Assembly: GCA_934597125.1 (NCBI GenBank)
Contig: CAKTQM010000048.1
Span: 1-11,654 of the forward strand
Direction of reading: 5' to 3'
DNA from: an uncultured Oscillospiraceae bacterium
GTDB lineage: Bacteria; Bacillota; Clostridia; Oscillospirales; Oscillospiraceae
Length of the DNA stretch: 11,654 nucleotides
Below the pieces are notes generated by a model. That model ran no database searches, was not told where the DNA came from, and was given only the letters and a program-made list of their open reading frames with translations. Each line of letters starts with the position of its first letter. Within the stretch, counting starts at the first letter, position 1. Positions 383-674 of the stretch are shown one piece after another. The position numbers and the translations under genes were made by a program.

Positions 383-426
383 GACTTTTTGTCAGGTTGG
401 CTAATTATTTTTTTAGATAGCAGGGT

Positions 427-615
427 TCAGCGAAACGAAAAAGGCACGGACAGGGGATCGTCGATCCACTTCCGTGCCTTTTGGCGGTTATACGCTTTGG
501 GATTCCTGCTTTTGCGGGTGACGGGGTTCAGCGGGCCCCAGGTGCCCCGCAGCATGGCGTTACGCCTGCGCTTCTCCTTTTTAGAGAGCTTTTCATAGGG
601 AATGAACTTTTCCAT
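427..615 (-). CDS. Small basic protein with terminator inside its 3' coding end (possible ribosome-rescue factor)
   Basis: This is a 62-residue protein of unrecognised family. It is strongly basic, with 18 Lys/Arg against 5 Asp/Glu. A lysine/arginine-rich stretch lies at 12-18, followed by GTWGPLNPVTRK (24-35) and NPKAYNR (38-44). The tail IDDPLSVPFSFR is different in character. It has no signal peptide or membrane segment. The ATG at 615 is chosen because AAAGGAGT lies 8 bases upstream and a -35/-10 pair lies just behind that. The longer in-frame start at 744 would begin upstream of the promoter. The last 18 codons (from Gln45) encode a 12-bp hairpin followed by a T-run, and the TGA at 427-429 lies beyond the expected transcript end. 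ArfA and BrfA ribosome-rescue factors have this architecture and a basic core, but I see no clear sequence homology to either, so that role is inference. A generic small ribosome- or RNA-binding protein is the alternative. Confidence 0.75.
   Translation of the reverse strand: MEKFIPYEKLSKKEKRRRNAMLRGTWGPLNPVTRKSRNPKAYNRQKARKWIDDPLSVPFSFR
439..482 (-). terminator. Intrinsic terminator embedded in the small gene
   Basis: On the minus strand AAAAGGCACGGA (482-471) pairs perfectly with TCCGTGCCTTTT (450-439). A second helix GGATC/GATCC (467-463 with 459-455) with a three-base loop is nested inside. The arm runs into TTTTTCGTTT (442-433). The core GC stem ends at 443, so release is expected about 7-8 bases on, near 436-434. 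That is inside codons 60-61 and before the stop codon. Flanking A's on the other side make it potentially bidirectional, but nothing is seen to be transcribed into it from the plus strand. Confidence 0.85.
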
Positions 616-622
616 ATCCGAT

Positions 623-630
623 ACTCCTTT
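623..630 (-). promoter_or_regulatory. Ribosome binding site that fixes the small gene's start
   Basis: AAAGGAGT on the minus strand is followed by 8 bases and then ATG at 615-613. The match and spacing are near ideal. Together with the promoter at 646-674 it places the start at 615 and not at the in-frame ATG at 744. Confidence 0.8.
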
Positions 631-645
631 CTTGCATTGTGGTGC

Positions 646-674
646 AGCATAGCAGAAAAAGGGCGCTGTGTCAA
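646..674 (-). promoter_or_regulatory. Promoter of the small basic protein gene
   Basis: On the minus strand a perfect TTGACA (674-669) is followed by 17 bases and TATGCT (651-646). TGC precedes the -10 element, giving an extended -10 form. The predicted start near 639 yields a leader of about 24 bases and, with the terminator at 439-482, a transcript of only about 200 bases. It is divergent from the glnN promoter; the two -35 elements are about 64 bases apart. Confidence 0.8.

Follow-up and report, generated by a model that had tools for sequence, protein, structure and literature searches.

The closest described systems are two alternative ribosome-rescue factors, ArfA (YhdL) of Escherichia coli and BrfA (YqkK) of Bacillus subtilis. 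To our knowledge, arfA and brfA are the only two genes with this anatomy, a terminator that leaves the mRNA non-stop. In the excerpted text of PMC5378476, Pro23 of ArfA lies at the decoding centre in one state, residues 25–29 add a strand to RF2, and the basic residues 31–48 lie in the mRNA tunnel and sense the empty channel. BrfA, as described in part of PMC6881298, is a small protein with an N-terminal helix (residues 4–17), a conserved R25 and a basic end (48–55). Its gene has a rho-independent terminator in the coding region before the stop, a brfA GFP fusion accumulates only without smpB, and recruitment of RF2 has been demonstrated. Excerpts of a survey confine ArfA and BrfA to Gammaproteobacteria, some Betaproteobacteria and the B. 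subtilis group (PMC11633108), and those of a review hold that further rescue factors are hard to find by sequence (PMC8012679). Firmicutes are without ArfB in the available portions of published surveys (PMC11633108, PMC6514570, PMC8874680). Among the papers listed by searches of the open-licence literature, preprints excluded, there is no clostridial rescue factor of this kind.

The gene described here lies in an 11,654-nt stretch of DNA from an uncultured Oscillospiraceae bacterium (hereafter the window). By analogy, it probably encodes an undescribed factor that would work like these two known emergency factors. A conserved terminator placed ahead of the stop gives a search signature that does not depend on homology, and in this case it points to a large, so far unannotated protein family in gut bacteria.

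The gene and its hairpin in the window

The features of the gene are collected in Table 1. The promoter scan gives a match to 10 of 12 consensus positions, with a TG ahead of the -10 element. The 62-codon frame, the near-consensus promoter and the ribosome-binding site all proved to be as the preliminary description had given them, coordinates and arithmetic included.

Table 1. Positions of the gene and its predicted signals in the window
Feature	Position	Strand	Remarks
Open reading frame, small basic protein	615-427	-	62 codons; ATG 615-613; TGA 429-427
Predicted sigma-70-type promoter	646..674	-	TTGACA 674-669, N17, TATGCT 651-646
Ribosome-binding site AAAGGAG	624..630	-	read from the sequence
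Conserved protein core, residues 1-44	484..615	-	alignment of 88 rows
Predicted terminator hairpin in the coding region	439..482	-	outermost G-C pair 478/443, extended by A-U pairs
U-tract TTTTTCGTTTCG	431..442	-	read from the sequence
TGA stop	427..429	-	13 nt after the stem; predicted to be absent from most transcripts

The hairpin is contained within codons 45–59. Its outermost G-C pair, from which the distance to the TGA is counted, joins nt 138 and 173 of the frame and is followed by TTTTTCGTTTCGC and then by the TGA. The RNA of positions 425–485 (minus strand) folds at -26.4 kcal/mol (z -4.61), and none of 200 shuffles is equally low; the earlier claim of a terminator hairpin inside the frame and before the TGA is borne out by this fold and by the gap. 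Compared with synonymous-codon shuffles, nt 121–189 of the window gene give a z of -2.83, with 1 of 200 shuffles as low. A generic terminator scanner with a loop limit of 8 did not report the hairpin, probably because of that limit and of the interruption in the stem. The codons of KAR (AAGGCACGG) and VPF (GTGCCTTTT) sit in the two stem arms, and part of the apparent conservation of the C-terminal protein sequence therefore follows from the stem. Intrinsic terminators usually release their RNA about 7–9 nt beyond the stem. The transcript is thus expected to end at about 436–434, ahead of the stop codon and with about 60 codons left, and the arithmetic by which this release point had been predicted is right.

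Rfam returned no matches in the window at gathering thresholds. On the plus strand, positions 738–766 form a perfect 12/12 sigma-70-like promoter, directly followed by a terminator-like hairpin with a T-run (792–811). This element (738–811) precedes a large plus-strand frame that by eye is like glutamine synthetase, and it is possibly an attenuated leader.

The hairpin across homologous loci

The contigs of 84,980 genomes were scanned with six patterns, two of which overlap the hairpin region. Of 95 confirmed places, the best 80 (L001–L080) were retained, and with the window they make up a core set of 81 loci. The titles of these best 80 of 95 loci are mostly those of MAGs of Oscillospiraceae, Ruminococcaceae and other Clostridia. 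Caproicibacter, with the culturable C. fermentans EA1 at L005, and Gracilibacteraceae are also among them, and a few are labelled only as Firmicutes, Bacillota or uncultured bacterium.

The main detector looks for a G-C-closed stem with a U-rich tail in nt 100–230 of the frame only, so that stronger distal terminators are invisible to it. Within this range, all loci but L068 (80 of the 81) share a hairpin in the same coding position. The stem ends at nt 166–183 in 78 loci and at nt 203 in L077 and L078. The stop codon lies at least 10 nt beyond the stem in 77 of the 80; in L019, L050 and L058 it follows after 4 nt, within the U-tract. No hairpin-bearing locus (0/80) has a stop ahead of the stem end. 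The preliminary description had asked, as its test, for a recurrent hairpin of constant coding position combined with variable C-terminal residues, and the outcome is strongly positive.

Other settings were also applied. With a stricter T-run at the stem and a range to nt 420, a first detector puts its best hairpin ahead of the stop codon in 55 of the 81 loci, at or past it in 9, and finds none in 17. Folding of 80-nt windows, which swallowed neighbouring stems, puts the stop past the stem end in 74/81. When run on 411 control frames, the main (lax) detector reports 302 with a hairpin, 192 of them past the stop, 7 at 0–9 nt and 103 at 10 nt or more before it; this control is too permissive and was replaced by a strict one. 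By the strict criteria, a terminator is present within nt 100–240 in 77 of the 81 family genes, and in 73 of the 81 it lies at least 6 nt before the stop, as against 43 of 519 control frames of the same loci with a terminator before the stop and 106 of 519 with one after it.

The folding of this region is also distinctive. Against mononucleotide shuffles, nt 121–189 have a mean z of -5.45 over the 81 loci, every one of which falls below -2, and nine other 69-nt windows (nt 1 to 399) have means between -1.11 and +0.33. Shuffling of synonymous codons gives a mean z of -3.70, with z < -2 in 76 of the 81 loci and a value below all 200 shuffles in 51. Both arms covary between loci (GGCACGG/CCGTGCC, GACACGG/CCGTGTC, GGCACAG/CTGTGCC, GGCACGC/GCGTGCC), and in the 22 loci with a stem beginning at nt 138 standard pairing accounts for 153 of the 154 outer pairs. 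Since the hairpins were picked for pairing, the weight of the covariation rests on the variety of pair types together with the synonymous and mononucleotide shuffle tests. We regard the non-stop architecture, as read from these loci, as very nearly certain.

Conservation of the protein

In a protein database search, 3,309 of 3,333 candidates matched at E up to 1e-3, and a profile built from divergent members matches at least 7,569 of 8,000 scored candidates. Such database names as were shown for the matches are 'uncharacterized' or 'hypothetical'. Three family members were compared with the Pfam and NCBIfam models and gave no match at E up to 5. The family profile found no PDB chain at E up to 10, in a copy that may lack the BrfA chain of 6SZS (an entry taken from excerpts of PMC8874680).

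The window protein was aligned with 26 among the best 120 of the 3,309 matches. Throughout an alignment of 88 rows, F4, P6, R23, W26, P31, R34 and Y42 are invariant and R44 is nearly so. Residues 1–50 include 17 Lys/Arg against 3 acidic residues, and a basic stretch spans 35–49. In codons 2–12, 46% of comparisons with the window differ and 98% of the differences are synonymous, a figure somewhat flattered because the peptide MEKFIPYE was among the six scan patterns. An RBS-like motif precedes 75 of 79 genes, and promoter-like sites matching at least 10 of 12 positions occur in 37 of the 79 upstream regions versus 1.2 expected from mononucleotide shuffles (L025 and L047, with short upstream sequence, are left out of both counts). 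The frame at 615–427 on the minus strand is a real gene, and its peptide core is, judging from the sequence comparison, under protein-level selection. An AlphaFold2 model (mean pLDDT 73.4, pTM 0.36) has helices at 12–22 and 44–52. Foldseek found no match to this model in the PDB, and we make no claim about the fold.

Tails and stop codons

The C-terminal tails are mostly unlike one another even among proteins 81–87% identical to that of the window; the tails of P0011/P0016 and of P0013/P0030 are partly alike. In two loci the frame stays open without a stop, for 432 codons in L001 and 272 in L100. With counting begun 9 nt beyond the stem, the first stop in 80 loci has a median distance of 28 nt in frame, compared with 89.5 and 71.5 nt in the other frames. 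In-frame stops are thus nearer, which indicates that the stop is not entirely neutral and would be expected if there is read-through in some transcripts. The downstream stop would then serve these leaky transcripts. The U-tract would give their products hydrophobic tails, as in ArfA, where excerpts of PMC8012679 attribute the hydrophobic read-through tails to the U-tract.

Carrier genomes

The carrier genomes searched number twenty and between them have 21 of the 80 loci. A single copy of the gene is present in 16 of them; the other 4 have two copies, in one case weakly. Two paralogues were seen in G005, G009, G014 and G019. Pairs from the same assembly include L039/L040, L031/L036 and L037/L071, and several paralogue pairs are clearly different in sequence.

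A tmRNA scores above the Rfam cut-off in 15 of the 20 carrier genomes. SmpB is found in 30 of 37 genomes, including G002, one of the five without a tmRNA match; it was not detected in G001, G006, G014, G015, G022, G333 and G398, in a set of draft-like genomes with many contigs. Neither tmRNA nor SmpB was detected in four of the 20 (G001, G006, G014 and G015, again draft-like). RNase R was used as a check for lost tmRNA loci, and a full match is absent also from G004 and G013, which do have tmRNA. If the absence from the four genomes were real, the family protein could be the main rescue system there.

The Pfam ArfA model (PF03889) matched in none of the 20 carrier genomes and was positive in the E. 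coli control. Exactly two proteins with an RF-1 domain occur in each of 24 genomes; with only two, these are presumably RF1 and RF2, and ArfB is presumably absent, in agreement with the published surveys cited above. ArfB (YaeJ), like the proposed factor, is an alternative means of rescue in bacteria. However, it has a GGQ hydrolase domain of its own, and the present protein has no Pfam match to such a domain. This genomic context fits a backup rescue factor. No neighbouring gene is shared: no cluster of open reading frames reaches beyond 8 of the 81 loci. The two largest clusters consist mostly of frames that overlap the gene, and the gene looks solitary.

The spread of the family was sampled around Caproicibacter (G003), which is included in every tally. 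The family is present in 4 of 291 genomes of the class of G003 (by either profile), in 33 of 295 of its order and in 14 of 150 of its family; it also occurs in 6 of 299 genomes of the phylum, two of them weak. This distribution shows the family to be patchy.

Proposed function and comparison with known factors

We consider it likely, by analogy, that the protein is a backup ribosome-rescue factor acting like ArfA and BrfA. Its own promoter would start transcription, which would end at the in-frame hairpin; an mRNA ending inside the frame lacks the stop codon, and about 60 residues would be coded. Ribosomes would stall at the mRNA end, where tmRNA-SmpB would tag the product for destruction and keep it scarce, as arfA and brfA suggest. 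Under an overload or a loss of trans-translation, product without a tag would build up. Its basic C-terminal half may then enter the empty mRNA channel of stalled ribosomes, while the middle, with the NPVTR segment, may recruit a release factor, probably RF2, so that the nascent chain is freed without a stop codon. RF2 rather than RF1 as the partner is a guess from the known factors. Control by tmRNA follows from the established behaviour of non-stop mRNAs, and we hold it to be highly likely. The rescue-factor reading of the preliminary description is supported by the near-universal hairpins and the genome context; the activity itself, with ribosome binding and recruitment of a release factor, and the dependence on tmRNA are inferred.

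The arfA gene of E. coli K-12 has 72 codons and, as a positive control at the lax setting of the detector, shows an in-frame hairpin at nt 153–199 with its stop 17 nt beyond; the same type of hairpin, predictive of a non-stop mRNA, is present in 80 of the 81 loci of the family. By eye, both proteins have P-x-x-R and then K-x(1-2)-Y-x-R, although their P-to-Y spacings differ in length by 5 residues (11 versus 16). A further difference is that arfA mRNA is also cleaved by RNase III, according to excerpts of PMC8012679. Homology to ArfA was rejected, with hhalign probabilities of 0.7–1.7% (including 1.7% and 0.8%) against a narrow ArfA alignment of 14 rows at 80–93% identity to E. coli.

BrfA was compared by its published description only, in excerpts of PMC6881298. 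Its terminator ahead of the stop has a counterpart, at the sequence level, in the present family, and the two predicted products are similar in length, at about 60 residues for the present protein and about 62 for BrfA. However, the reported homologues of BrfA come from a subset of Bacillaceae, mainly Bacillus. The same excerpts describe rescue factors as poorly compatible between species. The order of parts (helix, conserved residues, basic stretch) is alike in the present protein, ArfA and BrfA. As the parts are alike but statistical evidence of homology to ArfA is absent, the protein is described as working like ArfA and BrfA and is filed as a member of neither. ArfT of Francisella is likewise a small rescue protein dependent on a release factor. 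Its characteristic motif is a KGG-type repeat. This motif was found in no row of four alignments of the present family. ArfT differs further in its length of about 40 residues (PMC8012679, in excerpt), and the available text of PMC8874680 gives it no RNase III site and an mRNA level unchanged without ssrA.

Three other explanations were weighed. The gene could be non-stop and controlled by tmRNA with a product that is some other ribosome-directed protein, such as a hibernation, stress-signalling or translation-inhibiting factor. Regulatory anatomy tells the mode of expression and not the activity, and the searches run gave no structural or profile link to any rescue factor. However, arfA and brfA, with the same anatomy, both encode rescue factors in the excerpts of PMC6881298 and PMC8012679, and making more protein when tmRNA fails is a logic best suited to a substitute. 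The carrier genomes, moreover, offer neither a Pfam ArfA match (0/20) nor a third RF-1-domain protein (24/24). We therefore judge a different ribosome-directed role unlikely.

It is less probable still, and in our view improbable, that this is an ordinary small gene with a weak or leaky terminator, in which read-through predominates, translation ends at the stop codon and the hairpin acts in 3'-end stability or coupling. The coding position of the hairpin is fixed in 80 of 81 loci, with no stop before the stem end in those 80, and the tails vary freely (to 432 codons in L001 and 272 in L100). The closeness of in-frame stops would be in keeping with read-through, as would a branch of homologues with ordinary stops, among them L117. 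The lax detector also finds a gap of 10 nt or more between hairpin and later stop in 103 of 302 hairpin-bearing control frames, which points in the same direction, but the strict control gives 43/519.

A leader peptide whose hairpin attenuates a downstream gene, for which the hairpin is suitably placed between a promoter and a same-strand gene (in the window one that is transporter-like by eye, starting near 291), was rejected as very improbable, since the neighbouring genes differ between loci with none in common, and since the peptide core is under protein-level selection, unlike most leader peptides.

A rescue factor made from a non-stop mRNA thus remains the preferred reading. If its activity is confirmed, this would show that a sensor of tmRNA failure, carried by the 3' end of the gene that it controls, has been used repeatedly, and the protein would be a candidate backup for Clostridia, with a bearing on trans-translation as an antibiotic target.

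Divergent members and the branch with ordinary stops

The samples around Caproicibacter supply 50 distinct loci of the wider family. The detector scores 33 of them as non-stop, with the stop 6 nt or more beyond the stem end, and the remaining 17 as not. Fragments or broken copies account for five of the 17 (L110, L143, L144, L145 and L155). The other 12 are open genes that, by the detector, either have an ordinary stop or lack a hairpin (L093, L096, L104, L111, L113, L115, L116, L117, L118, L140, L141 and L142). The preliminary description had held that homologues with the stop codon ahead of the hairpin would count against its reading. By the main detector there are none among the 80 core loci with a hairpin, but this objection partly applies to divergent relatives: L111, L113, L115, L116, L118 and L120, for example, have ordinary stops with no in-frame hairpin, and in L117 the terminator is positioned after the stop.

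On a tree of 56 columns, whose 73 rows comprise 28 core loci out of 81, 44 from the wider set and L120, one weakly supported branch of eight (91/47) takes in 7 of the 13 rows that are not non-stop. The non-stop label requires at least six changes on this tree. A further frame of about 120 residues (149 are listed for L116) overlaps the gene in four loci, L111, L113, L115 and L116, and in L120, which is a viral contig. An XRE-like regulator frame near the gene was recognised by eye in the translations of the same five loci, and L113 also has a relaxase-like frame, read in the same way. The ordinary-stop gene with its overlapping frame looks, from its sequence, like a mobile-element operon in five of six cases, L118 being the exception. 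Seven of eight tested genomes with ordinary-stop members have tmRNA (G340, G385, G415, G438, G449, G493 and G541), and G398 does not. Since the core is retained without the non-stop device in some lineages, tmRNA control would be a property of the main branch and not of every member.

We give about even chances to a wider account, in which the family would be an independently evolved non-stop rescue family, patchy in Oscillospirales and other Clostridia without detected ArfA or ArfB, and its mobile-element branch would have lost the terminator, escaped tmRNA control and become a constitutive rescue (or anti-rescue) protein.

The phylum sample also contains two very distant short members, L141 and L142, of 57 and 61 residues (RGDWGEL.PVT....SKKAYNRHKEN); in L141 the stop lies 5 nt beyond a weak stem. 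With the L087 protein as query, the search returned no plasmid records, two phage records and one viral contig. Close relatives, some of them identical to one another, are found on 15 contigs classed as viral in IMG/VR (L121–L135), and all 15 have the in-frame hairpin with a gap of at least 10 nt.
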